Source of the DNA: Liolophura sinensis
Taxonomy: Eukaryota > Mollusca > Polyplacophora > Chitonida > Chitonidae
Direction: 5' to 3'
Assembly (NCBI RefSeq): GCF_032854445.1
Contig: NC_088295.1
Span: 23,547,385-23,611,384, forward strand
DNA: 64,000 nucleotides
The notes beneath the pieces were generated by a model that saw only the letters and a list, made by a program, of their open reading frames with translations, was not told the origin of the DNA and did not search any database. Shown here one piece after another: positions 229-61,131 of the stretch (position 1 is its first letter; each line of letters opens with the position of its first letter). The translations under genes were made by a program, and so were the position numbers.

Positions 229-4230
<4,002 letters not shown>

Positions 4231-5846: not shown

Positions 5847-8800
5847 ATGGATGAAACGACAAACCTGGAAGAAAAGCTCAGGGAGTCAGCTTGTATCGGG
5901 GACTTGGAGGAGTTGAGGAATCTAATCAAGGGCAAAGGAGTTAACATCAACTCACAAAACTCTGTGAATGGATGGTAATTAACACCAAGTGTCTAATATG
6001 CTGTGAAGGTGTATCTTTGCTGATCCAGACACAGACTGATCATCTATCATATTAATTGGTGACCTTGGTGATGATGTTACCTCCCAAGTGTTACATACCC
6101 AGGGCTATATCTAGAGACATTTTAGTTCTGGAAAATATTTGGACTCCCAAACTTGTGGGCGCCCAAGCTAATTGAACCGCAAGAAAACTGAAAAGTAACC
6201 AGAACAAAAATATGATTGTTCACCAATAAAAAGTTTTCATGCAAATTTATTTCATTCATACTCTCAGAGAGTATCATTTTGATTTCGGTTGTGTAAATTT
6301 CTTTGTGTACTATCACAATGCCACCATTAAAATTTGGGATTAGATCCTTCAGTGTTTGTCTAGATGTGGTCCTGGTACAATATATACGTCTAACATAGGT
6401 GACACCAGATTAATCCATGAGAGGTATAAGGCATTAATTATACTGAAGATCAGGACTATATAAATACATGTACATGGCACAAGTCACAGTATGTTAATGC
6501 AATTCAATAGCCTATAATGCAAAATAATATACAGTGTTGAGACTATCAAATAAATACAGCAATGCACCCTTTTGATCAGTATAAAAAAATCAAAACTTGA
6601 GCTATAACTTTGCTTGAGTTATTAATACAAAGAACAGTACATGTACTATTGTTTTCAGGACAGCCTTACACTGGGCAGCCAAGAGAAACCATGAATCAGT
6701 TGTGACATATTTGTTATCAGAAGGAGCAGATCCTAACATTGCCAACAACAACGGTGAAAAACCTGTCGAGGTATCGTCAGAGAAACAAATACAGCAGTTA
6801 CTGGGAGGTGAGTGAAGACAGCAGCGCACTAGAAGGGGAGGGTGATGGTCATAGGGTGGTCCTGAGGGCTCTACCTGGTTCCCAGAGGACTGGTTTTCGT
6901 AATTCAAAATTCTGACAACTGCAATATAAGTGAAATATAATTAATGAAAGACAGTGAAGGGCCAGAAGGGAAGATGGGGGTCATATCTCTCCAGGCAGGG
7001 AATCTTATCCCCAGGTTGGATTGATACAGTTTCGAGTGCTGTAAGGTTAGACTGTGAGACTAGCTAAAATCCTGGCTTGGAGGAGTCTTGAACATTATGT
7101 AAAGTGATGTGTGGCGTACCTGTGCTATTAACATGTAGGTGAAGATGTTGAAGTCAGAAGGTTTACTATGTATCTGGTGAGTTCCTATGATTTCCTAAGG
7201 GCTCTTCCTGATTTCCTGAAGGCTTAGTCTGCTTTCCTGAGGGCTATTTGTTTCACAAGGGCAACACCTTTATTCCTCCACCTAAAACTCTTGACTGCTG
7301 TCATACAAAAGTCATTATGACATAAAACATAAATCAAATAACCACATCATTAGTTGATAATCTGCAGAGATGATAATTCTCCACACAGGTGATGAATCCA
7401 TGGAGGTGCGTCAGACAAAGCTACCTATTACCCCTAACTACCTGGCACATCCGCCATTCCCGTACATCAAGCCAGGCCGTACTACAGAGCAACTCTCCTT
7501 ACATACACCTGTGAGAACTTCCATTAACAGTGAAGGTGAGAGAGTGGGAAAATAGGACTTACCGTGTCTTTTCCTATTTAACTTAAGAAACTTCTGCTCC
7601 CCTGGCGTTTTGCCCAGTTTCCTCTCACCTCAATGCTGGCTGCTGTTGTATAGTGAAATAATACTTAGTAACAAGTTAAAACACCAATGAAATAAGTAAG
7701 TAAAAGAAACTTGTGCAATAAAGTTGTTGAATGCCTGTAATAATCTGTAACAAGCTCTTGGAGCAAAATTGGTGGAGTGGTGAAGAGGCTTGTCTTACAA
7801 TTGCGAGGACACGAGGTGCGCGTTTAATCATAAATTTGAACAGGGAATTTTTCTAATGCTTGTTGGAGACCACTTGTCTTCCACTAATTTACTTATTTGA
7901 TTGGTGTTTTTTGCTGTACTCAAGAATATTTCACCCATGTGACGACAGCCAGCATTATTGTAGGAGGAAACCAGGCAGAACCTGTGGGAACCCACAATCA
8001 TCCACAGGTTGCTGGCAGACCTTCCCATGTATATCCGGAGAGGTAGCCATCATGAGCTTACAGTGACCACATTGGTGAAAAGCTTGTTGTTCATTGCGAC
8101 ACTCTTTCACTCTAACCACAGAGGCCATGGATGTTCCACTGATCTTGTGAACATTTCTGTATGTCACAGATGGTCAAGTTTGGTGGTTTGCCTCAGGTTA
8201 GTTCAGGTTCCCCTACCCATAAAACTGTCTGTCATTTTACAAGAGAAAATTCTCCAGTGTGGAAATAACTAACAGTGGAAAAATAATAAGTACATTAATA
8301 AACTGTTGTAATAAACCTTAATAAGCTGTGGTCATAAAGCTTAATGAGTTATTGTAATAAAGCTAAATGAGGTGTTGAAATAAAGTTTTCCAGTTGTTGA
8401 AAGACTTTTGTTCTCACCAGATGGACTTGGTGTGATTTAATCTGTTGTGATAATAACATGGGTACCTGAAGATAGGGATGTAGTGAGAACTGCCCATAAG
8501 TTGTCTGTTAGTCTGTTCAGCTTATCAGTATTGATGTAATGCATTCACTGTATCCATCATCCAAGACTTTGAGGTTTGGATATGGGTATCATAAATATCT
8601 ATTATCATGTAATATCACTGGCCAAGTGGTTAGCATGGTAGTGCAGTACAATGACCCATCTCGTCAGTGTTGTCCCTGTGAGTTTAACTCCAGCTCATGC
8701 TGGCTTCTCCTCTGGTCTTAGGTGGATAGGTCTGCCAGCAACCTGTATGTTGACGGTCCTGGGTATCTGTGGGCTGGTGGTTAGCATGCTAGTACACCAA

Positions 8801-9609
8801 GGCTCTGACCGTTTCTTTCCCACCATAATGATGTGTAATTGAAATATTCTTGAGTAATGAAACTTAATTGAAACAAATAATGTTACCCTTAAGACACATA
8901 TAATTTGCAAACAAAAACCCCTAGACATCTGCGTCATCAGTGTTATTGTAGAAACAAGGCTCTTGATCAATGTTCAAATTCCCCCATGGTCTGTCTGATT
9001 TCCTCCCACCATAATGCTGGCTGTCATCGTATAAGTGAAATATTCTTGAGTATGGCGTGAAACACCAGTCAAATAAATAAATAAATAAACAGTGTTCAAA
9101 TCCATCTCCTGGTGGTTTGGTTAGGATTTTATGTGTGGTAAATGACAGCGATTTCCCTCCAGCAATTTAATTTATCTTTGTTTAGTATATAAAATATTTT
9201 TGAGTATTTCAATCAAATTAACTGAATAAAATTTCAGTCACATTAACTAAATAAATTGCCATTATACCTGTAAATTTTTGTGCTTCTTCTTGTGACAGAG
9301 CTAGTCCTGAAGGCCCGACTCGCCAACTCGAATGAGCGTGATTTTATTGAAGTGGAGCTGCCTCAGCACAACCGGACATACGATGCTCTGCTAACATTGC
9401 TCTGTGGAGAACTCCATTGTGACAAGCGCTTGGTCTACAAAATCCGCAAACTCCCAAACACAATTGTACGCAAGGACAAGGACGTTCTACGACTAGTGGA
9501 CTTCCAGGAACTTGAAGTAGTTTTATCCAATAAGGTGATCAGTGCATCGTCACGGAATTATGGAGTTATCGGTGGAGCCAGCCCTCGTCAAGAACAGATC
9601 CTTTACTGA
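5847..9609 (+). CDS. ANKRD40: Ankyrin repeat domain-containing protein 40
   Basis: Exons 5847-5974, 6659-6807, 7389-7535 and 9299-9609 give 735 nt and a 244-residue protein with consistent phases. Residues 8-75 form ankyrin repeats: VNINSQNSVNGWTALHWAAK, then SEGADPNIANNNGEKPVEV. A short Pro-rich linker follows (PNYLAHPPFPYIKPG). The C-terminal family block (from residue 142) has ELVLKARLANSNERDFIEVE, KIRKLPNTIVRKDKDVLRL and DFQELEVVL, all close to human ANKRD40. The human protein is about 120 residues longer because its linker is longer and acidic; that stretch is missing here. The molecular function is poorly known in any animal, and a scaffold role is inferred only from the ankyrin repeats. 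The last intron (7536-9298) has collected several SINE pieces. Confidence 0.93.
7890..8128 (-). mobile_element. tRNA-derived SINE (family A), near full length
   Basis: In minus orientation it runs from the tRNA-like head (GAGGCC side at 8128) to the tail at 7890 (CCAATCAAATAAGT). It shares with the copies at 12285-12537 and 45897-46129 the body words CCAGCATTAT, GGTTGCTGGCAGACCTTCCC and TCAAGAATATTTCAC. It lies in the last intron of ANKRD40. Confidence 0.85.
8615..8880 (+). mobile_element. SINE family A, rearranged copy with a doubled head
   Basis: The head (GGCCAAGTGGTTAGCATGGT) and B-box-like GAGTTTAACTCCAGCTCATG are followed by the body word GGTCTGCCAGCAACCTG. A second head-like piece (GGCTGGTGGTTAGCATGCTA, about 8773) then appears before the 3' part (CCCACCATAATG, GAAATATTCTTGAGTA). 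It looks like two truncated copies joined, or one inserted into the other. Confidence 0.7.
8990..9090 (+). mobile_element. SINE family A, 5'-truncated copy
   Basis: Only the 3' end is present: TTTCCTCCCACCATAATGCT, then GTATAAGTGAAATATTCTTG, then the tail CAAATAAATAAATAAATAAA ending at 9090. Confidence 0.85.
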
Positions 9610-10107
9610 AATGAGGCTGTCAGAGAGGCACAGATGAGAACTGTTAGGGACCAGATACTAGGCAATTGCTCGGGCCAAATACGCTAACATTTTAATATCT
9701 TCCTTCACCTGTTCTCATTATTATCTGTATGCAATAGTGTGTGTGTTCATTTGTTTTATGTTCACGCAGGTATATCTTCCCAAAGAGAAAAGATAGTGTT
9801 CCTGTTCTATGGGTTCTTTTTTTTTTTTTTACCAAAGAGATAATACTGCATGGGATTTTTGTTCTTACATTGTAAAAGTCTTATGAAACTAATGTTAATG
9901 TTCCGAAAATATTTCTTATTTTCCACATGTAAATTCTTCTCTATGCTGGCTTTTATGCAACAAAGTGAAAAAAGTGAAGTTTATTTTTTCCAGGATCTCA
10001 AATGATTTATGAAGTATAAATTTACCCATCTTGCAGGACATGTAAGCACACAAGTATTCTCATCTATTTATTTCCTCATCAGTGTACTGATACAGCCAGA
10101 GTTTTAC

Positions 10108-10113
10108 AATAAA
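10108..10113 (+). terminator. Candidate polyadenylation signal for ANKRD40
   Basis: AATAAA about 500 nt after the ANKRD40 stop codon. A second AATAAA is at 10741-10746, so alternative 3' ends are possible. Confidence 0.5.
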
Positions 10114-11173: not shown

Positions 11174-14100
11174 TTAGGCTTTGTCTTTTGTCTTTCCAGT
11201 TTTTGCAGTCTTGGATGTCAAGGTCTTTGATTTTGTTTGTGCAACTTTCTTCTGTTTCTTCAAGGTTTCTCCAGACTTTTGGAGAACAGTGAGGCTTGCT
11301 TTTTGCCCTTTCCTGGAAGCAGTGGCTTTGACCTTTGGCCCATCTGGCTTTCGTCGCTTGACCTTTAACCTTGTGGTCTGTCCAATCTTCTCCAGTTTTC
11401 TCTTTCGTTTCATCTCTGACTCCTCTGTCACTATGTGAACCTCTCCAGTGGGAAATACTCTGACCTTGCCCTTCATCACTGTGGTTACCTCCTCTGGTTC
11501 TATCATCTCCCTCTTCTTCTCTACTTTTGGCAGCTTTACATCCTTTGCAGAGTCTGCACACAAGAACAGATAAGAAAACACCAGTTAGCACCACATCTTA
11601 GAGCTAAAAACATTAAAAGTTTACCGGGAAAGACTACAAAAAAGTGAATCTGGTGCCAGGAGAAAGGCCATTGAAAACTAGCTCTAAAGTTTTTTTTTTC
11701 TTTGACTAAATTACATTCAGTCAAATTGTAAAGTGGCTTTATGGACCATTTTGTCATTGGCAAGGTACTTTGACATCACATACCTTTTTAAATAATTAAT
11801 GTTGCTAATAACAGCCATTCCAATATTAACAACTGTGCTCAGAATGGGGAAAAACTAAACACCAGTTACAAGAGAACTGACATGTATTTGATAAGTGTAT
11901 TGTGCAGAACTATGATGGGAGGAAACCGGGTCGGGCACAGGAGAACTTACGACAATTCACAGATTGTTAGCAGACCTTCCCATGTACCATCAGAGAGGAA
12001 GCCAGCTTGAATGAAGGTTCTGGATTAGAAATACTGGGGTTAAGATCTCGCTTGTACTTACCTAACGAAGCATACACTGGAAGAGAGACAGATTTCTCTG
12101 TTTTTATATGGAATGACCGAATGTTAGCAGCACCTCCTGGAATACTTTGTGCTATCTGCTGAGCTGCTGACATCACATTCTCTGTGATCTGGACAACTGT
12201 TTGTTTAGAGTGGGCTACATAAGCAGTGCTGAAAACAATGACAATCATGGGATTATGCAAATGTCAACACCAGAGTTTCCAACATATTTTATTTGATTGG
12301 TGTTTTACACTATATTCAAGAATATTTCACTTATACGACGGCCGCCAGCATTATGGTGGGAGGAAACCGGGCAGAGCTCGGGGGAAACCCACGACCATCC
12401 ACAGGTTGCTGGCAGACCTTCCCATGTACGGCCGGAGAGGAAGTCAGCATGAAATGGACTTGAACTACCAGCGACCGCATTGGTGCAAGGCAATTGCGCT
12501 GCACTAGTGTGCTAACCAACTGAGCCGCGGAGGCCCCAAAGATTGAAACATACAAAAGAGGACCATCACCATCTGATCATTCTGCCGTTCAATACACTCA
12601 TGCATATCAATGCTTGTCATCATGCTTCTCCTGACTCCAGGACAGTACATGTACTATCCTAGTTGTTAACAGCGAGTCACTGTGCTACACAGGATAGCCT
12701 AAAGACATTTAAATATGTACCTGATACCGTACCATATTCTTATGTTATGTGGTCTGGACGACTGACATGTATTGCTGGCGATTTGGTGCCCAATTTCTGC
12801 ACTACAGCCTGAGCGATATCCAGAAAGAGTAATCACTAATAACAATAATTCTGTTATTTAAAACGCACTTTCTAAATGTCATCTACCAGTGTGATATATT
12901 CTTATTCTGGCCATCAAACACTAAGCTGGCTAACAGTGAGATACACCTGGCTGTTATCTTGACGAGTGCAACATGCTCATGTATATTGGCATACATATAC
13001 TTTGCAAACTTGTCTCTGACTTTTGATTATGACTATTCTTATGTAAAACCCTGCGTATCTTTGGCATACCAGTAACTATTCAGTTAGCCAGCAGGCTAAT
13101 CTGCCTTACCAGGATGAGCCTCTTCCACTAATTACACAGCGACTGTTGTTCAGTGCTCTGTTGATTTCCTTTTTCAAATCTTTGACAGTCAGATTAACCT
13201 GTACTGGATGTCTGCAAAGAACAGACAGGCCACTGAGTCAGAATTCATTGCAGCAGTTATGAATCAATTGCTCATGTGATCATAGACTGCTTTCACATAT
13301 TATATTTATTGGCATTTGAGGTCAAAATCAAGTGATGTGGCAACAATTAAAAGATCTCATTGACTGTACTAGGGTAGAGGAGATAAATTTTGTGAGTAAA
13401 CTCGTAAGAATACAAAAACGATTAACTGTTGAGTGAAAATGAAATGGTGAAGTACAGCTCTTTCGACATGTCTGTGGATTATTTTTCATTAATTATTTAG
13501 AAATGAAAAATTAAAATATGGCTGGAGCTGAGATTTCAACAATAACCTTTACATTCACTCTCAAGAAATTTATCACTATCTTGACAGCAGAGATAAAAAT
13601 CTTCCTCAGTTCACTGACTTATCCACAGAGGCTGGAAATACATGTTGTCATGGTGATCGTTTCACAAGTGTATGAAGCATTACACAGAACTACCATAGCA
13701 ACCACTACATTCATGGTATTAACGAGCTTTTGTGATGGGTTCATGTTTCCTAATTCCTAAATTGGTTGCAGTGACAGCGATATTGTGAAGTTATCACCAT
13801 TAACAGTTTATTGATAACCCACCTTTTTCTACCATAAAAGTGTTTTCCAAGAAGAGAGGGCAACAAATGAGCAATCCTTTCATCAGTTAAGTGAAGATTA
13901 AAACTGTTTGACAAATTCCTTTTGGCCTCATATGGCTTGTACATGGTTTTCAAGGCTTTCAGTGGAATAATCTGTCCAAATTAAGAAACATATCACACTG
14001 TAATTACGCTTTTGTAACAATGATTTAGCCATTTTTCTTGATGGGTGAGTTTTGAGTTGTATCAATGTTATTTCAGTAATGCCACAACATTGTTTCCTTG

Positions 14101-17100
14101 AAGGAATGCCGTCACCTGTATGCTTCAATAAGATGATATGTTTGAGACAAAGGGTGGCCGAGCTTTTCGGTTCCTAGGTTTCAATTTGGTGCAGGTCGCA
14201 TCATTCTGTGTTCATAGTTTTTGTTTCACAGAGAAAAATGTGAATTCTTAAAATATGCTGAATATCAAGAAATAAACTTAACGCAATGCACTTTACAGCA
14301 CAGTTCTCTGTTTACTAGCTTATGCACAAATCAATTTTGGTGATTTCATGGTAATTTTTTTTTTTTTTTTGTCACTTGGTAAAATCTTGAAACTTTCAGT
14401 AAACAATGTTGCCAAAGTTCTATTCAGGGCACAACATAACATCAAGTAAGGTCAAATATGAAAGATTGGAAGAAAATTGAAAACTTAGTCACGTGACGAG
14501 CCTTCAGAATACCAATTTGCTTACATATATGTAAATCACACTTTTTTTTTTACCATTTAAGTAGGCCTACTCATTATGTAACAGCAAATCAAATTTCACC
14601 CTGGTAGGTTGAGTGGTTGTTAAGAAAAAGACTTCAAAATGGCCTCAAAACCATGTGACCTGTCAAAAATCGCAAAGCAGCAAAAGTTTTGCTCAGTATT
14701 TAAAGGTTCTGTATTGTTATTAATAAGTTGGGTTTCTTTGTGTTTAGCAGTTTTCGAGATTCTTAATCTTGAAGTCATCCAACACAAATAAACCTAACAA
14801 GTTCAACAGGTGCCTCAGGACAGCATGGACCATTAACTAGGGACCAATCAAGGTAAATTTCAGAAAACACCTGGAAAGACTTACCTCTGATATTTCCTGA
14901 ATGTTATGTCTACTGAGCAGCTCCTTGTAGTGAAACACAGTGTCTTCATGTTCTCTGGACTTCCTGTCCAGATCCTTGACAAACAAACTGACAAACTGGC
15001 TATCTGTAGCGACTCCATTGGGAAGATTTCTGATGAAGACAATACATGTACTACTATTATCATCCAGTTATAAAAATAAACATGTTTGCCTTAAATTATA
15101 TAAGAGGGTGGAAAAGCGAAATGATATCATGACATATCCTCTTGCCGTCTTGTGTGAATGTTCACAATGGTGTACAGGTGAACTTAAACGATGGACAGTA
15201 TTAAATCATTTACCTGTACAACATTTACAATTAGTTTGCTGTCTTCATGCAGTCCAGTTTATGGGTGAATAATACCCGACAGAAACAAACAAACACAGTG
15301 AGCGACATACTGACCATAAACAGTGCAAGGCCACTACAGTGTGCGACATACTGACCATAAACAGTGAAAGGCCACCACAGTGTGCGACATACTGACCATA
15401 AACAGTGACAGACTACCACAGTGTGTGGAATACTGACCACAAACAGTGACAAGAATACCACAGTGTGCGACATACTGACCATAAACAGTGACAGACTACC
15501 ACAGTGTGCGACATACTGACCATAAACAGTGACAGACTACCACAGTGTACGACATACTGACCATAAACAGTGACAGACTACCACAGTGTGTGGCATACTG
15601 TCCATAAACAGTGACAGACTACCACAGTGTGCCACATACTGACCATAAACAGTGACAGGCTACCACAGTGTGCCACATACTGACCATAAACAGTGAAAGA
15701 CCACCACAGTGTGCGACATATTGACCATAAACAGTGAAAGACCACCACAGTGTGCCACATACTGACCATAAACAGTGACAGACTACCACAGTGTGCGACA
15801 TGCTGACCATAAAAAGTGAAAGACCACCACAGTGTGCGACATACTGACCATAAACAGTGAAAGACCACCACAGTGTGCCACATACTGACCATAAACAGTG
15901 ACAAACTACCACAGTGTGCCACATACTGACCATAAACAGTGAAAGACCACCACAGTGTGCGACATACTGAACATAAACAGTGACAGGCTACCACAGTGTG
16001 CTACATACTGACCATAAACAGTGAGAGACTACCACAGTGTGTGGCATACTGACCATAAACAGTGAAAGACCACCACAGTGTGCTGCATACTGACCATAAA
16101 CAGTGACAAACCACCACAGTGTGCGGCATACTGACCATAAACAGTGACAGACTACCACAGTGTGCGACATACTGACCATAAACAGTGAAAGACTACCACA
16201 GTGTGTGGCATACTGTCCATAAAAAGTGAAAGACCACCACAGTGTGCTACATACTGACCATAAACAGTGAAAGACCACCACAGTGTGCCACATACTGACC
16301 ATAAACGGTGACAAACTACCACAGTGTGCGACATACTGACCATAAAAAGTGAAAGACCACCACAGTGTGCCACATACTGGCCATAAACAGTGACAGACTA
16401 CCATAGTGTGTGACATACTGACCATAAACGGTGAGAACCTACCACAGTGTGCAACATACTGACCATAAACAGTGAAAGACCACCACAGTGTGCGACATAC
16501 TGACCATAAACAGAGACAAACCACCACCGTGTGCGACATACTGACCATAAATGGTTTCAAACCACCACAGTGTGCGACGTGCTGACCATAAACAGTGACA
16601 GACTACCACAGTGTGCGACGTACTGACCATAAACAGTGACAAGACTACCACAGTGTGCTACATACTGACCATAAACAGTGACAGGCTACCACAGTGTGCG
16701 ACATACTGACCATAAAAAGTGAAAGACCACCACAGTGTGCGACATACTGACCATAAACAGTGAAAGACCACCACAGTGTGCCACATACTGACCATAAACA
16801 GTGAAAGACCACCACAGTGTGCCACATACTGACCATAAACAGTGAAAGACCACCACAGTGTGCCACATACTGAACATAAACAGTGAAAGACCACCACAGT
16901 GTGCCACATACTGACCATAAACAGTGAAAGACCACCACACTGTGCCACATACTGAACATAAACAGTGAAAGACCACCACAGTGTGCGACATACTGACCAT
17001 AAACAGTGAAAGACCACCACAGTGTGCGACATACTGAACAAAAACAGTGAAAGACCACCACAGTGTGCGACGTGCTGACCATAAACAGTGAAAGACTACC

Positions 17101-20100
17101 ACAGTGTGCCACATACTGACCATAAACAGTGAAAGACCACCACAGTGTGCGACATACTGAACATAAACAGTGAAAGACCACCACAGTGTGCGACATACTG
17201 ACCATAAACAGTGAAAGACCACCACAGTGTGCCACATACTGACCATAAACAGTGAAAGACCACCACAGTGTGCGACATACTGACCATAAACAGTGAAAGA
17301 CCACCACAGTGTGCGACATACTGACCATAAACAGTGAAAGACCACCACAGTGTGCGACATACTGGCCATAAACAGTGAAAGACCACCACAGTGTGCGACA
17401 TACTGGCCATAACCAGTGAAAGACCACCACAGTGTGCGACATACTGACCATAAACAGTGAAAGACCACCACAGTGTGCGACATACTGAACATAAACAGTG
17501 AAAGACCACCACAGTGTGCGATATACTGACCATAAACAGTGAAAGACCATCACAGTGTGCGACATACTGAACATAAACAGTGAAAGACCACCACCGTGTG
17601 CAACATACTGACCATAAACAGAGACAAACCACCACCGTGTGCAACATACTGACCATAAATGGTTTCAAACCACCACCGTGTGCGACGTACTGACCATAAA
17701 CAGTGACAGACTACCACAGTGTGCGACGTACTGACCATAAACATTGACAAGACTACCACAGTGTGCTACATACTGACCATAAACAGTGACAGACTACCAC
17801 AGTGTGCGACATACTGACCATAAATGGTGACAAACCACAACACTGGGATCTCCAATCAAATAAACATATTTGGTTTATACAAAAAAAAATTCCAGCCTCA
17901 ATCAAATCGTCATATTTATAAATGGACAAATAAAGAGTATCTTACTTTCAACTAAATAGGGCATATCAGGACATTAGCACAAATAGAAACCTCACATCTA
18001 ATTGTTCAATGACTTACAATTTTATTGTTTTATTCTTCAGCTGAGGCACCTTCTTAAAGGTAAACTGAAGCAATATCTTCTCTGGGTTGTCCAGAAAGTC
18101 TGTGTCAGGCTTTGTCTTCTTAATCAACAACTGGAGAGCGGACACAGCCTTCTCAACCTAGGAAAACACCAACAAGATGACAATGTATGTGATGTTTGGT
18201 ATGATGCCACTGCATCATTTACCAGTTCAGGTGAACATTAGGTATACATTAAAAGTTTGGGGTGACCTTATCTATCAACTGAAAACCACCTACCCAATTA
18301 GGTTTTCTTTCTGAGTTCTAAAGTATCGGATTCTGAAACAGGCTAGAGCAAATCTGCTTTTCCCAATTACAAACAAGGGTCAATGAAAGATACCCAATAC
18401 TTTAAAACTCCCCTTAAGGATTATCACCCAATATCTGAAGGTGCAGGGGTGCAGGCATTTTCTCCTCTGGACACCTGTACCCCTTGACAATTCGCCCCTA
18501 CTCCCCTCCCTCACCCACTTTCTCAGTAATTCAACCTCCTCTACAATTCCTCTTCACATATATATGAACACATACCAAAGCTGTATTTGTTTGGATTGAA
18601 CAAATAGAAATAATGAGATAGGTAAATCAAGAGGGGTTTAAAGAATAGTATAAATTGTGAAGAATGTCACTTGTACATATTATTTTTCCCAAAACATCTG
18701 GACACTCAACGCTTTACTTGTGCCACAAGCTCTACTCACCCAGATATGAAAATATTGTTTAAATATTGATGCAAGTCCAAAACTACATTTTGCTATAAAT
18801 GCTCACAAGTTATGTACACTATTTGGATTGTCCTTTCACCCGATCGATCACCAGCTTGCCACTGCTGCGGGAGGGTCCTAAATTACAATTGAGCCGTTCG
18901 AAAAACGAGGTTGTTGTTCATGAGTTGCTTTCCATGTGAATTCTTTGGAATTGTGAAGACAAGGGTGCTATTTACGTGTTAATTTCCATGTGCCTTTTGA
19001 CGTCATTAGTTTCCCCCCAGTCACATGTTTTTACTGATTTTTCTTTGGTTAAAAATGAATGGAGTATGTTCAATTTACACGCAAAGAAAAACAGCGTAAG
19101 TAAGACGTTCTTCATATTAGTCTCACCTGAAACTGTCTTCCACGAGTTTTTTGTGTCCAACTGTTTGTGGTTCATACATTTCAGAAAGTCATTTCTTTGT
19201 TTTGAAAAAGCTCTGGATTCGAACTTCCATTAGACAGTATGTTGGGTCCGTATTCAGATGCTTATACCACTAGATCACTAGAGTTGTTGTGATAGTATGA
19301 ACTTTTTTGGAAACGTGTTTAAAAACTAACCTCATTCAGGGAAGCATGAAAGTTACATGCAAACACAGCACCCAGACATTACTATATCCATTTGTTTTTT
19401 TTTAAATATCTCGATCCCCGTTCATTTTTGTACCAATGAAAAATAAGCAAAAGCATGTGAGCATGGGGAGGCAGTTATAAAGGGTAATATTTATGTATAA
19501 CTACCTATGTCAATAAATTCATGATTTGCTGAATGAGGCTGGCCAGATATGGAGGAGACATTTGTCAGATGTAGTCCATGTGACAAAACCATGTGACACA
19601 TACACATTCAACCCTTACCATGTTCATCTATTTTAAAGACGTCTAAAAACCACGTTCTAGCACATCAACTCGAGTGCTGTCTGATGAAAGTTTGAATCCA
19701 GAGCATTTCACAACAAACTACAGAAATCCTTTCAAAAATGTATGAACCACAGATAACACTACGTACAAATCCCATGATATATAACAGTGCTATGCAACAG
19801 AAATGATAAACGTCTTATTTACGCTGTCTTTCTTTGTATGCAAACTAAACATCTCTCAATTCAATTTTAACCAATGAAAAATCACTAAGAGCATTTAACC
19901 GTGGGAAAGAAATGGCGTCAGAATGCACGTAGAAATCAGCAAGTAAATATTACCCTAATCTTTACAACTCCCCATGGAGAAAACAAATGACATCAAACCT
20001 GAAAGCGCACATGGAAAGCAACACTTAAACACAAACCTAGTTTATACAACATCCTCTGCAACATGTAGTATGATGGAGGGAAAGGGTTACAACCACAGGT

Positions 20101-20324: not shown

Positions 20325-20701
20325 CTATAAAACTTCTAATTAGATGAAGACTTGTGTCGACTTTCAACTCCACGTGGTTTGTGTGTTTTCGCAAGAACCG
20401 GAAGAGAACGTCAAGGTAATTTAATTTGTCTATATTTTCATACTTGTACAGCAACATCAAAAATTATAATTTATATTTCTAAGACGTTTGCTCGCTGATT
20501 ACTAAATTAAAAATATCTTTATTTGGTGCGGAATCAATTATCGGAATCACAATGGCGAGCACCAGCTGTCAAAAGTGGAAACGTTGTCAGGAAAGAACAT
20601 GTCAATGGTCACGTCAGGGTTATGTAGTTGTGACGTTTCCGATTTAAGTCATGAATGTTTCCTGGATTTAAGGTAGAGGTGTTGACATCCATGATTCCGC
20701 C
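20325..20701. promoter_or_regulatory. Shared divergent promoter interval, RSL1D1/CANT1
   Basis: Only 377 bp separate the two start codons. It holds a perfect E-box CACGTG (20371-20376) and an ETS-type ACCGGAAG (20397-20404), both nearer RSL1D1. A GTCACGTCA half-CRE-like element lies near 20610 on the CANT1 side. No TATA box is obvious. Myc-type control of a ribosome-biogenesis gene through CACGTG is known elsewhere; here it is only inferred. Confidence 0.6.
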
Positions 20702-49377: not shown

Positions 49378-49680
49378 TTCAACATTTAGCAAACAAATAA
49401 TTCAATAAAAACTTTTATAAGCACGGCTTCGCAGACCCGAACCGCGTGTGAGAAGTTCTGGTGACGTCACGACAGTGATGACATGCGCCTGTCGCAATCT
49501 CATGGGTTAACGTAGTTTCGTTATGTTGAGCCATTATTCACTTGACATTTTTTGTAGGCGTTTACCCATATTGTGGCAATAGCAGGCAGTTCTTAACAGC
49601 AAATACTAAATTTTGATCTTTTTAAGTATTTTACCGGTCGATCAGATGGGTTAGAGGTTATAAATCCACAGCCGAAGAAA
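49378..49680. promoter_or_regulatory. Shared divergent promoter interval, GSPT1/LUC7L3
   Basis: 303 bp between the two start codons. A perfect CRE palindrome TGACGTCA lies at 49462-49469 with TGATGACA just beside it, nearer GSPT1. No TATA box is seen. A bidirectional promoter is inferred from spacing alone. Confidence 0.65.
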
Positions 49681-52600
49681 ATGGCGGCTTCACAGGCAGC
49701 AGCGTTGCTTGATGAATTAATGGGACGAGATAGAAACCTTGCCCCAACAGAAAAACGAGCAGAGTTACGATGGGATGATCCTGAGGTAAGAAATTGTTTT
49801 GATTGTTTTCTATGTATTTCTTTAATATTGTTAGCGTTGTTATATTGTTAACGTATGAGTGCCGTTGGCATACTGATCAGCCAGTGGGTTTAATTGTTTT
49901 GCAACAACAACAAACATGGCCTCTGGCGTTTTTCATTAAAGCTGCCAAAAGTGAAGAGTCGCTTGCAGTATCTGTTACAGTCGATAACCTGCTTCTCAGA
50001 TGGTCGTTGTGAAAAGCAGATTCTACAATGAATTCACATCACTCTAAGCCCGAAAACTCAGATGTGAGGGTGGCTCATTTTTACTGCTTTCCACCCTTGG
50101 AACGTTCGACTTGTAGACCCGATTTACTGTTATCACATAAAATTTGCATTTACGTACCCTGTTAGCAAACTTCACTACATATGCCACACTTAAACCTAAA
50201 TTCACATAATATAAGTTAATAAAATTACCAACGTTTTATCGCCTTTGGCATCAGCCATTATTCGAGACCTAGCACATCCAGTCATTTCACTTGCAAGGGA
50301 GAAGTGTTGCCACCACTGCTCCAAAGGTTACTGAATTAACGAACGTACCATGCTACCTGGTTTAAAGCAGGAAGTTTAAACATCTGCACCATTCAGTCTA
50401 GGCCAAACATCGCTAGAACTGCACTTCGCAGTATGAAAGCCCACCATACTACCATATTTTCCTCACCTCGTTGCTATACCTCACTAGGAATGAAATACCT
50501 TCCACTCACTCACCTGTACAGGTCACCAGCCACCGTGTTGTCCTCATCACAATTCACGATTCGCGATTGAGTGAAATTGTACGGTGCAAGCTTCAATCTA
50601 CTAATGGGTAGCATTTGTGACGATGATGCATACGTTAGTTCAGTAACTGTGGGAGCAATTGTGGCTAGGGGCTGTGGTACTATAAGCAGAGGATGAGAAG
50701 AGTGAGCAGAAGATGATAAATATCATGGAGCTAAATGGGCGAAATGATTTTTTTCCAATTTGTAAAGTTGAAAGGACTATAGGACACTGAAACTACCATA
50801 TTTTAAGTAAATTTCCATGAAATTTATCATTCATCTTCCCCATATGTTTAATTACAATGGGGTAATGATTTTCATAATTACTCCTGTTCACATACTTTGT
50901 GCAGTAATGGATTTTCATGTACACACTGTATTCTGTTCTGATTGTTACATTTCTCCATTCAAACTGGATGTACCAGTGGTGCAATCAGTGTGCACCACAA
51001 ATGGCACATGAAACAATCTATATATATGAAGCATAACATTTTGTGATTTCTGTTTTCTTTCATTTATTTTTGAAAATGTTGGGGTGTTTCTGACATCTGG
51101 ATTCTAGTTTATCTTAAAACCAAATGTATCACCTGTCAAATTCAACTTCATGCACGTGGTGCACCAACAAAAAAATTGTTACATGCACTGTGATATATTC
51201 ACTTGCATTTTTGCCATTGTGTGTTCAGAATTTGAACCCTGAACATACTTTAACTTCTAGGAAGGGTCTGTTGTTCATTATCCTTTGTCTTTCACCTTGT
51301 CATCTGCCATAGCCGGAGGCGAGTGAAGAACCTAGATGTGGGTGATCTTGAAGCATTTCCTTAGATGACCGATAAACATTAACTCCTCTAAAACTACATT
51401 TTACTTGGGAAACAATTGTTATGGCCACAAATCATGGACTATGCTAAAAAAAATGTGTGGCAAAGAGCTTCTTCAATTTGATGAATTGCTTGTACTTATG
51501 TACTTTGTGGCATTGAGTGGTTTTAGTCTCCAATTGAAGTTCTATAGTTAATTATAAAGTTGAAGAGCAAACAATGGAAACATGACTTTCACCAGAAACA
51601 AGAGTTACACATTAATATGGTGAACGTTTTTATTTTGTTTTAGGTATGCAAGTATTTTCTGTGTGCATTCTGTCCCCATGAGCTATTTGTGAACACAAGG
51701 GCTGACTTAGGTGGGTACTCAAATGAAAATGCTCTTTTGTTAATCATAAAAATATTTAGTTTAACAGGGTCTTAGCTGATCAAATGTTACTTTTGTGCAA
51801 AAGTTAATGGAAGTCCCATTGTAAACATTTCACTTCTGTATCAGAGATAGTTCTGAAAAAAAAATTATGTCAGAATAAAATCATTGATTGGTGACCAGCA
51901 CTCACATTCTTTGATGGTTATGATAATATTATTATTTTATGGGGGCCTCCATGGCTGTATGGTTAGTGTGCTAATGCTACACAATGACGCAGGAGTCTCA
52001 AGAATGCGATCATCGAAGTTCAACTCCATTTCAAACAGTGATTGGTGGTGGCTTTCCCCCAGGCTCCCCCTGATGACCACTTGCCATAATGCTGCTGCTG
52101 CCATCCAAGTGAAATGTTCTTGAGTATGACATTAAACACCAATGAAATAAATAAAGACAGAAATATTTTATGATGTACCATGAAAGAGAAAGATTAAATC
52201 TGGAAATAAGTTTCGGGACCTAGTTGTTCGACATTGTTTTGGGCAATTAAGCCCGGCATTAGTTTTAGTCTGGTCTGAAGTGCCATTAGTTTTGAATTAG
52301 GCCAAGACTGGTATTAAGATTTAAGCCTGGCTTAACTTTTAATCACTTTTGAACAACCAGCCTCGGGATAAGGGTATGTTCTGCACCCGATAAAAACAGG
52401 CCAAGTGGTACAGTACAAAACAACCATGTGGACAAAGTTGTGATTTTGTCATTAATATGGATAGTCGGAAAACTTGCCCATAATTTAATCCACTAACTTA
52501 AAATTATTTCCAGACTTAACCATCAAATCAGAATTTTTCATGGTTTTTGATCTTGTCTACAGTAGATGTGGTGTCGTATTCAGAATTGGTGTAGGAACTT

Positions 52601-55600
52601 TATGCATACCAAATACATATACCAACTGATTTCTTTTTGACAGGTCCATGTTTGAAGCTCCATGATGAAAGTCTTCGTAAAGAGTAAGGACAAATTTATA
52701 TATACAGTATGGTAGTCATTCTGGCATACAGTTTTTGCGCTGGCTGATTGTAGCTGATGTTTGTAGCTATTTGTTTACTTTCTTCATATTTAATAAATGG
52801 AATTGTAGATACTTTTAATGTTTATTCATGTATTATGCATTAAGGGAAAGCAATTTTTTTTCAGAGAGATGTCCTTTGTTAGGAAAAAGAGTCCTAATAA
52901 ATACTAAAAGTTCAAGTAAATACTGTTTTTTGATGTAATTAAATGAATAAGTTTTACTTGAAATAAAGTGTTACCATGGTACATGTGGATGAGAAATACT
53001 GACTTTTCAAGTTTTTATCTAAAGTTGAAATGTTATATTAGATAATCAGAGTGATTGTGCCCATCCTTTTTTTTTAGGTATGAAAAAAGCAGCAGATTCC
53101 AGAATGTTGGGTATGAAGAGGATTTCTTTAGATTTTTGCAGAGCCTGATTTCTGATGTAGAGCGACGTATACGAAGGGGGCATCAGCGATTGGCTTTGAA
53201 TAGCACGCAGGGAACAGTAAGTTTTTATTATTCACATCTGTATACGTTAAGTCTTCACTAAAAATCGTTACATCTGTCGCTGAGAAACATAGGTGGTAAA
53301 TAAGTAGAACATATATTCGTATACAGTACTTGTGAATTATTGACAAATGACGTAGTAGCTGTTATTTACCCCTTTGTACAGAAGTAAAGCCTTATTGGCT
53401 GACACAATACAATCATCTGTTATAAACACATGTACACAGTAAGCCTGTATTTTTTACTTCTCTGCCCCTTAGGGCTAAGGGAGTATTGTATTGTCGTCCA
53501 TCTGTCTCCCAATTTCTTGTCATCACAATAAATTCATGAAATTTGCAAAATGTTCATTGTAACTCATAGATGGGCTTTTTTGGCCATTTCTGTCTATACA
53601 TACACTAATTTGTATGTAATTAAGCACAAGTTGAATTACTGTTACTTCATGTGTATCTGTAATTTGTGATTGTGGGATTAAATATAAAAATGTGTGTGCT
53701 TACTGTTATATGACCAATCCATTATAAATTAATGAACCCAAATTGTTTTTCTCCTTTTTTCACAGTTAAGGAATTATTATTATTATTTTTGCTTCCAAAC
53801 ACTCAACAGAAAATACATTACCCCCATTCAGTAGAAAAGTAGGACTGGAATGCAACACTTATACCTTTGTTAGTACAAAGACCCTTGAAAGAAGGCAGAG
53901 GACCAGTCAACTGTATCACTGTGCTTAGTATGAGCAAATGTCTCACTAAAGAAGACCAGTTGTTAGTCTGCCTTTTAATCTTCTAAAATGATGGGGAATG
54001 GAAAGTTTTGATCGAGAAAAAAGTTGAAGTGATTTGGGCCTGAAAAACAGATAGGTCCTGGCATGGAAAGTAAACAAGTAAATCTTGTTGTCTCTTGTGT
54101 AGTGGATAACCACCAACAGATATAAGATTTAATTCCACTTCTGAAAGGACTGGAGGTCAGAAAATTACTTCATCATACCTCATGAATATTCATAAAGCTA
54201 TCTTGATATTACATTGGTCAATCCAAGTTCTGTGATGAGATATTATTTTTCTCTAAATGACCCACCCTATATACGCGATCCTTTGCTCACATGAGGTCCG
54301 CGGTCAGTGTTTTTTATCTTGTCAGCAGCATGCGAGCACTGAAAGCAAGTATTTTGATCACACTGTGTTTCTCATCTGCCCGTTCTTTCAATTTCACTGA
54401 CAAAGAACTATTGCTTTCATTTCATAATTTTGAGGATGTCACAGTAAGCCGGGGGATTTCATATGTAAGCAGTCATTGTTGATGGGTTCCGTGCTTTATG
54501 GTAGTAGGAACCGATCGGAAACAGAAAATCAGTTCCGTGTCACCTTCATGGGAAACAATTTTACCATTTAGAATAAGAATTATAATATAATCTACATGTA
54601 TATGCATCAAAAGAGGGGGCTGAAATATATTCTGCTGAGCCAAGTATTCCTTCTGTGTCATAGATGTAGATGTCTCACGTCCACATTACTCCAACTGTGT
54701 ATTATAAACCACAAGTACCAATATTTGATCACTGATCACCAGGCCCTGTCTCTTCCGTCCTCACAATAAATGAAGTCCCTTGTTAGTGTTAAGTATTATT
54801 TACCTGTGCTTTATGCCGTACTAAGGAATATTTCAGTTATACGACGACAGACAGCATTATGGTAGGAAGAAACCAAACTGGGGACCATGCGCAGATTGGA
54901 TTTAGTCTCAGTAGTTGATTTTTCTTGTAATTCTTCAACCTTTTAACATGTTTGCATGCAACCTAAAACTGCTTAGTGTAGGAAAAGACATATGCTAATT
55001 TTATTCTACGTAATTAAATAGTTTTCATATTTTCAACTGATTGCATTTGTTCTGCTGAGTTATATTTTGTTTTATTCGTTGTCCGTGCACTGTAAAATTT
55101 GCATCAACAATAATGTGCCTAAGTTGTGTTCCTTTACAATGAACTTGTGGACGTAGGTCACCCCATTGACATAGTTGACCAGTGTTGTTAAGAAGGGCTG
55201 CCTATTCCTCGCCAAAAGGCCTCTTTTTCTAATCTCTGTGTGGTAGGTTCTACAGAACTTCCATCTTAGTGTAACTTGGCCATCCGTGTCGCATTTGGCC
55301 TTGAAACCTTTGCTGAAATACCACTTTAGCAATGTTTTTAGCTAGAGTTGCCTTTGTGGAAAGGAAGTGTTATCTAGGGTCCAGTGCACATGACCGTGTA
55401 AGGGGGAGGTAAATTTGGACGAGAGATTGGTGTAAACTGCAGGAATAGCATATTTCTGCATTTTCAGCATGATTTAATAACAGATAAAAGGTTTAAATAT
55501 CACCCGAGGTTAAAACCCTTAAACTGTCAACTTTGTTTCAACCGTGGGAAACATACTATCAGTTCCGTGGTTTTGTCATCACGGTACCAACACGCTGCGA

Positions 55601-58600
55601 GTAACAGTCGTTTCCCTGAAATCCAAAATTCCCTGAAATTGCACAGGCGGACTTCCCCGCTCTACGCAAAATTGCCAAGTCTAATTTTAGGCTAGTCCAC
55701 AGACACTCCACATATAGTGTGTATCTGACATCTAACATAGTGAAGACCCAGGAAACACCTGGCTGGCATGGAATTGAAGTCAGTATCATCAAACACTTAT
55801 TAACTCGTAGCTAAGTGAATACCCTGAATCCTGGACCCTCGGCTGGACTGCCAAGCTGACCTCGGGTCCGGGATTCATGGTATTGACTCGGCCACAAATT
55901 AATAAGTGTATATTAATAATCTTCATTAATGATTGATGTAAAAAGTCCATCGGTATTGTTTAGGTGGAAATATTCAGTATTATTAACACATTTTGTTCTG
56001 CTGCTCTGATCAGTACCAGTGCTCTTGTAATAGGCAGGGTAGATTAGACGTTTATTGAGCCACTTCCATTGTCGCCAGAAACTGTGCCCATTACACCCAC
56101 CGATTCTGCTTTATTTTATTTTTTTAAACTAATTGCCACATTTTATGTTTGAATGAAGTTTTGAACTACTTGCTTTAAACAGAAATTCTTCTTGATTTAC
56201 TTTATTCCTTAAGGAAGACAGTAATATGCCAGACTTGCTCTAGTCATTTGAGATCTCTCATTTAGTCATTTTCGTTCCCTATCTGTTCCGAGTTACTGCT
56301 TTTGGTTTGAGAATTGTTGAGTTTTTACACTTATGATAAGTACATTTATTACAGTCCTATTGCATGTGATTGTTCATGATGTATTTATGGCAACCTTATT
56401 TTTGTTAAATATGTGGATTACCATTGCAGCTTAATGGGAATTATCCAAGTGCTAAAGAAGATCGCATTCAAATGTTGACTGAAAAAATCAACGAGCTGGT
56501 GAAACAGGTCAGTGATAAATAACCTAACAGATGGCATTTCAGATATCTATTGTCCTCCTGCTTGTCTGTTAAGGAGATTTGCATATTGTAATGATCTTGG
56601 TGTTACTATAAAATGGAACGTGAAATCCTTAAATGTGTAAACCTGTAGTGGCCCAAATGTGTAGGGTTGTTTATAAATATTTTGTTTTAATATGGAAGCC
56701 TACTCCAGTGTTAGCTATACACCTTTGCCAATATTGATGTCATTGCCAATATTGATCAACAGGTGGTTTCTTGACTAGATGGTGCAAATTACAGAAGACA
56801 GTGTAGGTGCATTGACTCAGTCAGTGAAATCTGGTGACAGCTTTTGTTGCAGATTAAATTCTATAGAATGGAAATTTAATCAAGACTGGAACATCACACC
56901 ACCATATGACGGCTTTCACTCAGAGTAGCATTTGCGATTGTTTGTTACATTTATTTTGCCAACGGATAAATATTAAAAAAGACTTGGGAAGAGGTAGCAC
57001 AGCACTAGGTTTCTGACAACTGACATGACTTTGAGATGTGTGGTTTTGGTGATAGTTGGCGTGATTATCCAATACCAAGGATGTGTCTTGCCCTACAAAG
57101 GATGGCCGGCAAGCCTATGAGCACAATGTTAAGCCAGCCAAGTAGAATGGAAAGATAAGATGGGATTGTTACCTACTGTATGTTTAATAAGTGAGTTCTT
57201 GAATTTGAAGTGGATGGAGTACTTAAAAGTTCTTAAATTAGAGGTCACATAAGCAGTGCGACCCCTTGTTTGTTCTCTTGAATTGTGTTCTGTGATTGAA
57301 ATCGTTGCTGTTTTATTATTTTTGTTGAAGGTGTTATCAGTGCTTATGGTTCTTGTTTTGGTCTGTTTTTTAAGGCTGAAGAACTTGGATGTGAAGGGAA
57401 GGTGGAGGAAGCTCAAGGAGTGATGAAGCTATGTGATCAGCTAAAGGATGAGAGGGAAGAGTTAGAAACAGTGAGTGAAGAAAATTTAAAAGAAAAACTT
57501 GTTCATTAGATCTCTTTGATTTTTTCATAATTTTTTAATGTGTGTATTTGGTTTGTGTTGTTCAAACTTTGTGGACTCGTAAATTTGCATCAGCTAACAA
57601 ACTCGTTATGCCCCAAGTACAGATGATTGGTTAACGCAATAGTGGTTGACATGGTTATTGTTCTCATTTGTTTTAGGCCAAACCAGGCTCATCTAGCTCT
57701 GACATAGAGAAGACAATGGAAGTGTGTGGGGTGTGTGGAGCTTTGTTGGTCGTGGGGGATGTACAACAGAGGATTGATGAACATCTCATGGGTAAACAGC
57801 ACATGGGATATGCCAGAATACGCTCCTTTGTGGAATCCAAGAAACTGGAAAAACAGGTGAGGATTACAGTTTGTTTTGGACAGTGAGTAAGTGATGACTG
57901 AAGAGCTGGTTGATAAGTAATAAGTTGGTATAAGGCAACTCATGACTCATCAAGTAGTTTCAAACCTTTGCCAAGTTGTAACCAGCTCTTGGGGCTAGTT
58001 TCACAAAACTTGCATAGCCATCTCCAGGTTTGTTAGTTGGCTAAGGGTCTCTAGTCATGTTAGCTGGCTATGGTTAGCCCTTAGACTTCGTGAAACCAGC
58101 CCATGTCAAATTTTACCCAACCTCTGTCAAGTCCTATCAAACTCATTACAGCATTACCCTATATCATCAGCCAAGGATATAGGTTTCTTTCTTGTATTTT
58201 TAGTTGCATTTTCCAGAAACTCTTCAAAGTGAACGGAACATCTATTCTAAGCATTTCATGTGCCCTCCTTCTTTTTTTCAGTATATTCTTGAGTACAGCA
58301 TAGAACACCAATCAAACAGATAGATAAATAAATCCTTGGGAGATAAGTGAAGCCTTAATCTTAAAAATCAAATTTGGTTCTTGTGACATTCTGGATTAAA
58401 AAAAGGAAAACGAACAAAACCCAGCTAGCACAGTTATAATGCTGGTTGCAATTGAAATATACATGTTCGAAGTGTAAATTTATATGCATATTAAGGGCGG
58501 AAGCATGTAGTCAATATATAAAATTACTGGGTAGGACTGAACTGAAGTTTGATGCTTCTTGGTCATGGTATAAGTTCTCATCAACTCACCTCTTTCTGGA

Positions 58601-61131
58601 TGAGTTGTTTTGATTGCCTTACTTCAGAACAGTTGCTCTTGACGGATGAAGTTTTGCACAGGAATCCAGCTCTTGCTAGCTCAACCGTGGCCTTCCATTG
58701 GGAGGTTTCAAGCCTCTTCTCCTCCTTTGCCCATAAACGGCTGTCACTATATAAAGGGGTTTTTCATCAGTGTAGCGTAAAACATTAGTCAAATCTGTCC
58801 AGTATGTCTAAATGTGATCTGGGAGTGGGCCATGGTCAAGGGGTTACAGGCAGTTGTCTTGCCATCTTGTGGCTTCAAAACATGGCCTTGGATCAGTAGG
58901 ATGTGCATATTTTTATCTCATAGAAAAGTCAGTAACTTGCCTAAGGTCAGCTGTTTATGCCAATCACTCCTGTTTCCTCCACAAATAATACTGACTGTCA
59001 TGCATAAGTGAAAAATTTTGAAGCAACAGTCAAATAAATAACGTGATCAAGAGAGTGTGATGAAAGATTTTAATTCTAAGAGGAATAATGTCGACGACAA
59101 ACGCTGTTTTATTGTTCTTGCAATACATTAGAACCACTAAAAGTATGTGCACTGACTTTTGTGATACAGAAAAGACAACAAGGAATTGATGAAGAGACTG
59201 AAGCAAGGTTGAACAAAGAACGTGAAGAAAGAGAAAAGGAAAGAGAGAAAGAGAGAGAGGAGCGCAAAAAGCGTGAAGAGGAGCGCGAGAAAGAAAGAGA
59301 AAAGGAGAAGGAGCGGAGACGAGAGAGAGAAAAGGAGAGAAGTAAGGACCGTGGACGAGAAAGGGATCGACATAGGAGCAGATCACGAAGCAAAAGTAGA
59401 CGATCACGGAGTAGAGAAAGAAGACGAAGTGGCAGCAGAGAAAGGTTATTATATCAGATGTTTTAACCAGTAGAGAGTAGTTCAGACAGAATGTTGTAAG
59501 ACATGCTTAATAGACGAGGTAGACTGGAGTAAATGTAGTTAACACTGACATTTGTGATGAAGAGGGTATAAGTGGAACATGAAGGCAGTGGAATAGCAGA
59601 ACTACTATATACTATATAGATGTTTACACGGTGTTATGTTCATGGAGGACCGCTTGTCTTCACTGTGTAAGTTCTGCCTGGAAAATTTGAATACAAAGGT
59701 GTTTTTAATACAGTGTATTTACAGAGCATGTCACTCTCAGTAAGTTCTCTGTTTTAATAATGGTTATCATCAGGCTTTTTAAAACCTATACAAACTCATG
59801 GAAGAAAACTTTTTTTAGGCGACGACGATCCAGAAGCCGCAGTAGGAATCGTCGCTCACGTAGCAGGGACGGGAAAAGGTCAAGTCGCAGGTCGGACAGT
59901 CGGTCCCGTCGCTCCAGAAGCCGGAGCAAAGGGAAGTCAAGTAAGCGCAAACATCGATCAAGGAGTAGAGATCGTAGATCCAAGAGCACAGAGCACAGGA
60001 AAGATAGTAAGGAAAGAAGTAGGAGCATGGACAAGAAACGAAGTACTAGTAAGGATAGAGTTAAGGATGATGAGAAAACTGATGATAATGTAAAGGATGT
60101 GATTAAGGATAGAGATGATCGTAGTGTGAGCAAAGACAGAGATCAGAATACTGACAAGAAGAAAGAACCTAACAGTAGTGAGGATAGAAAGAGGGAGGGT
60201 AGCAGTAGTAAGGATAGGAAGAGGGAACGGAGCAGAAGTAAAGATAGAAAAAGAGATCGTAGTAAGAGCAGAGACAGAAGACGAGATCGTAGCAGAAGTA
60301 GAGATAGAAAACGGGATCGCAGCAGAAGCAGAGACAGACGGCGAGATCGCAGCAGAAGTCGGGATAGAAGGAGAGACCGTAGCAGAAGTCGAGAGAGGAG
60401 GAGAGACCGTAGTAGAAGTAGGGACAGGAAACGTGATCGCAGCAGGAGCAGGGATAGAAAAAGAGATAGAAGTGGAAGCAGGGATAGAAAGAGAGACAGA
60501 AGTGGAAGCAGGGATAAGAAAAGAGACAGGAGTGGAAGCAGGGATAAGAGAAGAGACAGAAGTGGAAGCAGGGATAAAAAAAGACCCAGGAGCAGAAGCA
60601 AGGAACGTAGCCAGAGCAAAGAAAGTCGTGGTGACAAAAATCTTGATAAAGATGCTGCTCAGAAGGATCTAGACACAAAAGGCACAAGTTCTGAAAACGG
60701 TAAAGAACCTTTTTGTGTCAATTCAGTATACTGCCACACCTTTACAATGCTGTTAGGTAAAGAGTTGGATGTTTTCCAGGATCAGATGCTTTTATTTCCT
60801 GTTATTTTCACGGGTGTCCCCATCTTTTCTAAGGAGTGGAGAATAATTGTTTTTCTGGCACATTCAGGTTTCTTGGGACTATTGGTAACCAGAGGGAAGT
60901 CATCACATCCATGCAGTATATACATGCATTCCATTAGATCATACTTCATGCACTCTTGAATCCATTACTTTGGTAGTGTAAGATTGTGCTTTGTCTTTCT
61001 TTTATCAAGGTGAGCCCCGGGTAGCAGTTACTGATGGTGGGGACAGCATACCAAAGTCTGTGACAGAGGCAGATGAAGGCTCGGGGAATCCTGTTGTTAC
61101 TGGAGAAGGGGACCGTAGAAAGGATGATTGA
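49681..61131 (+). CDS. LUC7L3: LUC7-like protein 3, U1 snRNP-associated splicing factor
   Basis: Ten coding exons: 49681-49785, 51644-51710, 52644-52683, 53078-53216, 56430-56507, 57375-57470, 57677-57856, 59170-59444, 59819-60699 and 61010-61131. They total 1983 nt, or 660 residues. The N-terminus LLDELMGRDRNLAP and VCKYFLCAFCPHELF through PCLKLHDE form the CCCH zinc finger (C37, C42, C45, C60, H64). Then come YEKSSRFQNVGYEEDFFRFL and EELGCEGKVEEAQGVMKL. The second zinc finger is C192-x2-C-x15-H-x5-H (VCGVCGALLVVGD, DEHLMGKQHMGYA). Residues from about 236 are Glu/Arg-rich, then a long RS domain. LUC7 proteins steer 5' splice-site choice by U1 snRNP in the nucleus. Human LUC7L3 has 432 residues; the surplus here is RS sequence, including 14 repeats of ten residues. 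Confidence 0.96.
51941..52155 (+). mobile_element. SINE family A, diverged copy
   Basis: GGGGGCCTCCATGGCTGTAT, GGTTAGTGTGCTAATG and GAAGTTCAACTCCA give the head. CATAATGCTGCTGCTGCC, GTGAAATGTTCTTGAGTA and CACCAATGAAATAAATAAA give the 3' end. The middle is shortened. It lies in LUC7L3 intron 2. Confidence 0.85.
54796..54898 (-). mobile_element. SINE family A, 3' part
   Basis: TATGCCGTACTAAGGAATAT, TTCAGTTATACGACGACAGA and CAGCATTATGGTAGGA match the family in inverted orientation. The head is missing. Confidence 0.75.
56694..57075. repeat. Dispersed repeat of unknown family, copy 2
   Basis: Matches 46488-46830 in the same orientation and order of words: AATATGGAAGCC, CAACAGGTGGTTTCTTGACT, GCATTGACTC, ATTTTGCCAACGGATA, CTGACAACTGACATGACTT. 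It lies between the fifth and sixth LUC7L3 exons. Confidence 0.55.
57992..58102. mobile_element. Small inverted-repeat element, about 111 bp
   Basis: The left end GGGCTAGTTTCACAAAACTT is mirrored by the right end, which reads in reverse GGGCTGGTTTCACGAAGTCT. Inside, GCATAGCCA and TGGCTATGG extend the symmetry. It is probably a MITE, similar in style to 29612-29725. Confidence 0.65.
58280..58334 (+). mobile_element. SINE family A, 3' tail fragment
   Basis: TATATTCTTGAGTACAGCAT and ACACCAATCAAACAGATAGA with TAAATAAAT. Confidence 0.75.
58960..59041 (+). mobile_element. SINE family A, eroded 3' fragment
   Basis: TCCTGTTTCCTCCAC, ACTGACTGTCATGCATAAGT and AACAGTCAAATAAATAA follow the family order, with losses. 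Confidence 0.65.
60180..60599 (+). repeat. In-frame 30-bp coding repeats in the LUC7L3 RS domain
   Basis: Fourteen consecutive ten-residue units of the type RDRKRDRSRS fill 420 nt of the ninth coding exon. The last five units before the RPRSRS unit change S-R to S-G (RDRKRDRSGS) or RDR to RDK. Codons vary between units (AGA, CGT, CGA; AGC, AGT), so the array is not a recent perfect expansion. Confidence 0.9.

Follow-up and report, generated by a model that had tools for sequence, protein, structure and literature searches.

A chiton gene block that interleaves human 16p13 and 17q neighbourhoods is probably a case of doubly conserved synteny

Comparisons of amphioxus scaffolds with four human chromosomes have established that one unduplicated segment can correspond to several human regions, which carry complementary and interleaved subsets of its genes, a situation known as doubly or quadruply conserved synteny (PMC6292497; PMC7269912). 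Human chromosomes 7, 16, 17, 19 and 22 hold conserved paralogous blocks dating from the 2R genome duplications, 23 of 30 neighbouring gene families fitting 2R in a list that includes the T-type CACNA1, WFIKKN and SOX8/9/10 families (the SSTR2/3/5 paralogon; PMC3560075). At a smaller scale, the PDI–RhoGDI microsynteny is found on both human 17q25 and 16p13 (PMC5722932), while a survey of 372 sets of ancestral bidirectional promoters concluded that most of them disappeared on the vertebrate stem once duplication had taken place (PMC6292497). Text searches of the literature for synteny or microsynteny of the gene pairs described below returned no matching publication, nor did a search linking T-type calcium channel genes to a paralogon.

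The window analysed here is a 64-kb stretch of the Liolophura sinensis genome (scaffold 1, hereafter C1, positions 23,547,385–23,611,384), whose assembly comprises 609,464,459 bases in 632 contigs, with a longest scaffold of 96,433,062, C1 representing 15.8% of the genome. Exon-by-exon matches read directly from the assembly yield six genes, in the order U2AF2 (−), ANKRD40 (+), RSL1D1 (−), CANT1 (+), GSPT1 (−) and LUC7L3 (+). The last five occupy positions 5,847–61,131, from the ATG of ANKRD40 (5847) to the end of LUC7L3 (61131), and they follow one another exactly as the original prediction had proposed. The human queries used in tblastn for ANKRD40, RSL1D1, GSPT1, LUC7L3 and U2AF2 yield residue-level identities that are approximate, on which the gene assignments do not depend; CANT1, GSPT1 and RSL1D1 were also compared with PDB chains, and LUC7L3 was assigned at the Pfam family level.

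The 5′ part of U2AF2 (U2AF65), recognised by tblastn with the human protein, spans positions 1–4230 on the minus strand and extends beyond the window as far as about −7.2 kb, with a first exon carrying the ATG at 4230, an RS-domain exon at about 2244–2396 and two further exons at 569–652 and 229–402. This gene, which the original prediction did not include, lies head-to-head with ANKRD40. The ANKRD40 orthologue (5847–9609, plus strand; tblastn E-values down to 1.9e-20, Pfam ankyrin repeats) has ankyrin-repeat exons at 5853–5975 and 6660–6812, a short exon at about 7409–7468 and a C-terminal domain at 9298–9525, its three main exons being 49–60% identical to the human query in tblastn. The RSL1D1 orthologue (11174–20324, minus strand) matches the RSL1D1 chain of PDB 8fkp (E 2.1e-25) and the Pfam family Ribosomal_L1; it begins with a short exon at 20295–20324 (MEPMDIDKQQ, followed by a GT donor) and goes on with exons at 18017–18157, 14882–15025, 13822–13977, 13115–13207 and 12066–12230, and a basic tail at 11177–11584. 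Long open reading frames at 15.2–17.9 kb were considered as genes and rejected: they correspond to a minisatellite within an RSL1D1 intron (15294–17842; Tandem Repeats Finder, 41-bp unit, 62 copies, 91% match) that happens to lack stop codons in several frames of the minus strand, over 339 codons at most.

The CANT1 orthologue (20702–24351, plus strand) is the sole apyrase-family gene found across the chiton genome; it matches the human protein in PDB 1s18 (E 1.5e-116) and the Pfam family Apyrase with three coding exons (20702–21283, 23452–23688 and 23980–24348). The GSPT1 (eRF3) orthologue extends over about 14 exons from its ATG at 49377 down to 31880 on the minus strand, with an N-terminal exon containing a PAM2-like stretch (49156–49377), GTPase exons from 44690 to 41113 and C-terminal domains from 36207 to about 31890. 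According to the match with the eRF3a chain in PDB (E 7.8e-137, HBS1L reaching 5.4e-66 and EF1A about 1e-59), the locus is neither HBS1L nor EF1A. Finally, the LUC7L3 orthologue (49681–61131, plus strand; Pfam LUC7, E 4.6e-44) has exons at 49681–49786, 51644–51712, 52643–52684, 53076–53210, about 56445–56516, 57363–57476 and 57707–57844, followed by RS-rich exons at about 59128–60704 and a last exon at 60982–61131. Its exons are 62–78% identical to human LUC7L3 vs. 37–52% to LUC7L, which rules out that the locus is LUC7L, a separate chiton gene located at 27.55 Mb on C1.

An assembly or annotation artefact, in which the arrangement would stem from wrongly joined contigs or from paralogues taken for the genes named here, hardly deserves credence. 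Nothing was found in its favour, apart from the approximate nature of some human queries, whereas the window and its 200-kb flanks do not contain a single N, the assembly is based on HiFi and Omni-C data (BUSCO 96.1%), and the genes are complete, their exons forming unbroken series and their identities having been checked against PDB chains and Pfam.

In the 100 kb examined on each side of the window for neighbouring genes, the next assignable gene downstream of LUC7L3 is an orthologue of TMEM186 (75009–75743 in window coordinates, E 1e-27), itself followed by an orthologue of C7orf50 (about 79113–80651, WKF domain, E 2e-12), neither of which was part of the original prediction. Beyond C7orf50, at about 95–155 kb, a cluster of SRCR-domain (scavenger-receptor-like) exons was recognised by eye and appears to be a local expansion. 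The upstream flank (−7 to −100 kb) contains RNA-binding-like genes that are too poorly assignable to be counted; amid these repetitive genes lies a DHX9/MLE-type N-terminal double-stranded-RNA-binding domain (−33.2 to −32.5 kb, E 3.5e-17). On the same flank, TTPxAxK repeats abound in a minus-strand stretch (−17297 to −14247) that stays open for about 1,000 codons.

From U2AF2 to LUC7L3, the coding strand alternates without exception over all six genes, which produces three head-to-head and two tail-to-tail junctions. Two of the head-to-head junctions are very short, with 377 bp between the start codons of RSL1D1 and CANT1 (20325–20701) and 303 bp between those of GSPT1 and LUC7L3 (49378–49680), and their CpG observed/expected ratios reach about 1.19 and 1.26, respectively, vs. 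0.44 for the window as a whole. Both have divergent starts less than about 1 kb apart, the limit adopted here for bidirectional arrangements, while the start codons of U2AF2 and ANKRD40 are separated by about 1.6 kb. Judging from their anatomy, the two short gaps are candidate bidirectional promoters.

The human locations of these genes are as follows: ANKRD40 and LUC7L3 are adjacent at 17q21.33, where they are flanked by CACNA1G and WFIKKN2, the ohnologues of which (CACNA1H and WFIKKN1) are at 16p13.3; CANT1 is at 17q25.3, U2AF2 at 19q13.42, TMEM186 at 16p13.2 and C7orf50 at 7p22.3. RSL1D1 and GSPT1, which the original prediction held to be neighbours on human 16p13, indeed belong to one 145-kb block at 16p13.13 (PMC4846317). 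Thus, all eight genes of the 85-kb stretch running from U2AF2 to C7orf50, to which our gene-by-gene comparison of chiton and human extends, have their human orthologue on chromosome 7, 16, 17 or 19. The probability of such an outcome ranges from 1e-8 to 3e-6 if the paralogon is assumed to hold 10–20% of human genes, values that are illustrative, since these fractions are estimated and the count was restricted to assignable genes. Along the chiton sequence, membership in the human segments alternates as 17q-16p-17q-16p-17q, only one in 10 arrangements being fully alternating. Chromosome-level paralogy (PMC3560075), together with the positions of CACNA1G/H and WFIKKN1/2, indicates that the human 16p13 and 17q neighbourhoods most likely arose as copies of a single ancestral region.

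This bears directly on the idea, put forward in the original prediction, that an inversion might have joined two old pairs. Under this scenario, an inversion or a translocation would have brought two unrelated pairs together during the evolution of chitons or molluscs, and a junction within the window is conceivable, chiton karyotypes being unusually rearranged and Chr01 fusing four molluscan groups (PMC12005716). Yet, both human neighbourhoods lie in a single 2R paralogon (PMC3560075), which makes any joining superfluous, the observed alternation cannot be produced by one inversion breakpoint, and the genes on either side (U2AF2, TMEM186 and C7orf50) are in line with that paralogon as well. 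Consequently, we consider the scenario very improbable and see no need for an inversion.

Linkage was also assessed with paralogon markers located outside the block. Six of eight such markers map to C1, namely Fringe (1.8 Mb), CLEC16A (7.1 Mb), Axin (19.9 Mb), SoxE (20.6 Mb), LUC7L (27.6 Mb) and RhoGDI (41.4 Mb), a directly observed concentration with P = 3.3e-4 given the share of the genome represented by C1; LUC7L was met during the copy-number check of LUC7L3 and was not preselected, the count without it being five of seven. The iRhom and TNRC6 markers gave no match in the search of the chiton genome, which does not imply their absence, and they were therefore excluded from the count. Axin (19.92 Mb) and SoxE (20.58 Mb) lie 0.65 Mb apart, and human AXIN1/SOX8 (16p13.3) and AXIN2/SOX9 (17q24) are likewise near each other. 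The two exceptions, JIP3/4 and CREBBP, are both on C8, at a distance of 170 kb (45646299–45815094). This suggests that the human paralogon regions mix at least two ancestral groups, and the notion that the whole human paralogon equates to one chiton chromosome was dropped for the same reason. As human CREBBP and MAPK8IP3 are both at 16p13.3, the proximity of CREBBP and JIP3/4 on C8 is a second candidate for an old linkage reflected on this human arm.

Altogether, a common ancestry of the block genes at the scale of chromosomal linkage is well supported. The first option of the original prediction, an old linkage group with a subsequent split, is thus supported at the chromosome scale, both by the eight orthologues on one paralogon and by the six of eight markers on C1. 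The split itself is best read as duplication followed by complementary loss, which would make the human neighbourhoods sister copies rather than fragments.

Whether the order of the genes is as old as their linkage is a more delicate matter. If the genes were unlinked, two human-adjacent pairs among six genes would be expected with a probability of about 1e-6 per window. The pattern is not due to chance among unlinked genes, yet shared macrosynteny greatly raises the background: when gene order is shuffled within 24 linkage groups, simulations return about 0.3–2.8 comparable places per genome, a comparable place being one where two pairs that are adjacent in human and stem from different segments fall within five genes. 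Hence, a single selected window cannot settle whether the local order is ancestral. At face value, these numbers could mean that only the chromosome is shared, the order having been fully shuffled in both lineages, and that the two pairs came to lie within five genes of one another accidentally, attracting notice owing to the large number of windows read. The scatter of paralogon genes along C1, at least 40 Mb wide (Fringe, 1.8 Mb; CLEC16A, 7 Mb; RhoGDI, 41 Mb), goes in the same direction, as does the altered relative orientation of ANKRD40 and LUC7L3, which are in the same direction in chiton and divergent in human, so that at least one rearrangement is needed, on 17q. On the other hand, the simulated chance per place is just 3e-5 to 4e-4, RSL1D1 and GSPT1 retain the human order and orientation (both on the minus strand), and head-to-head pairs with gaps of 0.3–0.4 kb are the arrangement likeliest to be conserved. 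Moreover, Chr01 of this chiton, whose genome was published under the name Liolophura japonica, is a fusion of MLG 01+04+16+18 described as not well mixed, and the partial duplication reported in that genome concerns MLG11/17 and not the MLGs of Chr01 (PMC12005716); old local blocks can thus persist on this chromosome. We therefore regard shared macrosynteny without conserved order as an unlikely but serious contender, and the exact local order, compared between chiton and human, as only likely to be ancestral; its value as an old marker of bilaterian synteny, foreseen in the original prediction, is plausible. Two further observations count against doubly conserved synteny: the upstream RNA-binding and DHX9-like genes show no obvious fit to the paralogon, and C1 is itself a four-group fusion.

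In our opinion, the block is probably explained by doubly conserved synteny, that is, one ancestral linkage group, its duplication in 2R and complementary gene loss. The genes would go back to a single linkage group of bilaterians, which is still part of chiton scaffold 1, and the corresponding chromosome would have been copied on the vertebrate stem during the 2R genome duplications. The copy leading to human 16p13 would have kept RSL1D1, GSPT1 and TMEM186, and the copy leading to 17q ANKRD40, LUC7L3 and CANT1, while 7p22 would have retained C7orf50 and 19q13 U2AF2, every gene losing its second copy. The interleaving would then be nothing else than the appearance of the human neighbourhoods when viewed from an unduplicated chiton, and the alternating 17q/16p membership, as the expected product of complementary loss, supports this reading. 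In RSL1D1–CANT1 and GSPT1–LUC7L3, the two close head-to-head pairs, both partners are probably served by one bidirectional promoter, which may have helped to hold the order until, after duplication, opposite partners would have been kept on sister chromosomes. That the split partners of both close pairs are now found on sister human chromosomes fits the disentangling of promoters on the vertebrate stem (PMC6292497), and we infer that such disentangling happened to these two pairs.

Several genes of the run serve RNA splicing, the assembly of ribosomes or the termination of translation. One may go further and propose that an intact run of at least six housekeeping genes, held together by head-to-head promoters (U2AF2–ANKRD40, RSL1D1–CANT1 and GSPT1–LUC7L3), dates back to the bilaterian ancestor and was dismantled in vertebrates only through the freeing of promoters by 2R, a proposal that we advance tentatively, with more doubt than conviction. 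Provided that the local order is ancestral, the block would be a compact and checkable case of genome duplication dismantling bidirectionally paired housekeeping genes, as well as a small anchor, on one invertebrate chromosome, for human 16p13, 17q, 7p22 and 19q13. Should the linkage alone be ancestral, the block still contributes an observation from a chiton to a paralogon known from vertebrates.

When set against the described systems, the chiton block is likeliest an instance of an already known pattern and not a new phenomenon. It resembles the conserved synteny between amphioxus and human in that the human regions carry complementary, interleaved gene subsets, except that the unduplicated partner is here a chiton. 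With respect to the SSTR2/3/5 paralogon (PMC3560075), the chromosomes 7/16/17/19/22 carry all eight human orthologues, and SoxE and Fringe share the chiton scaffold; in contrast, the genes of the block are mostly single-copy survivors that stand outside its 30 duplicate families, and CREBBP, which stands within them, is on C8. The PDI–RhoGDI microsynteny (PMC5722932) likewise involves a local gene arrangement present in duplicate on these two chromosomes, 16 and 17, but both of its copies survive on both of them, whereas the genes of the chiton block each survive on only one. Finally, as with the ancestral bidirectional promoters that became disentangled following 2R (PMC6292497), the chiton pairs are close head-to-head housekeeping genes of an invertebrate whose partners are found on different human chromosomes.
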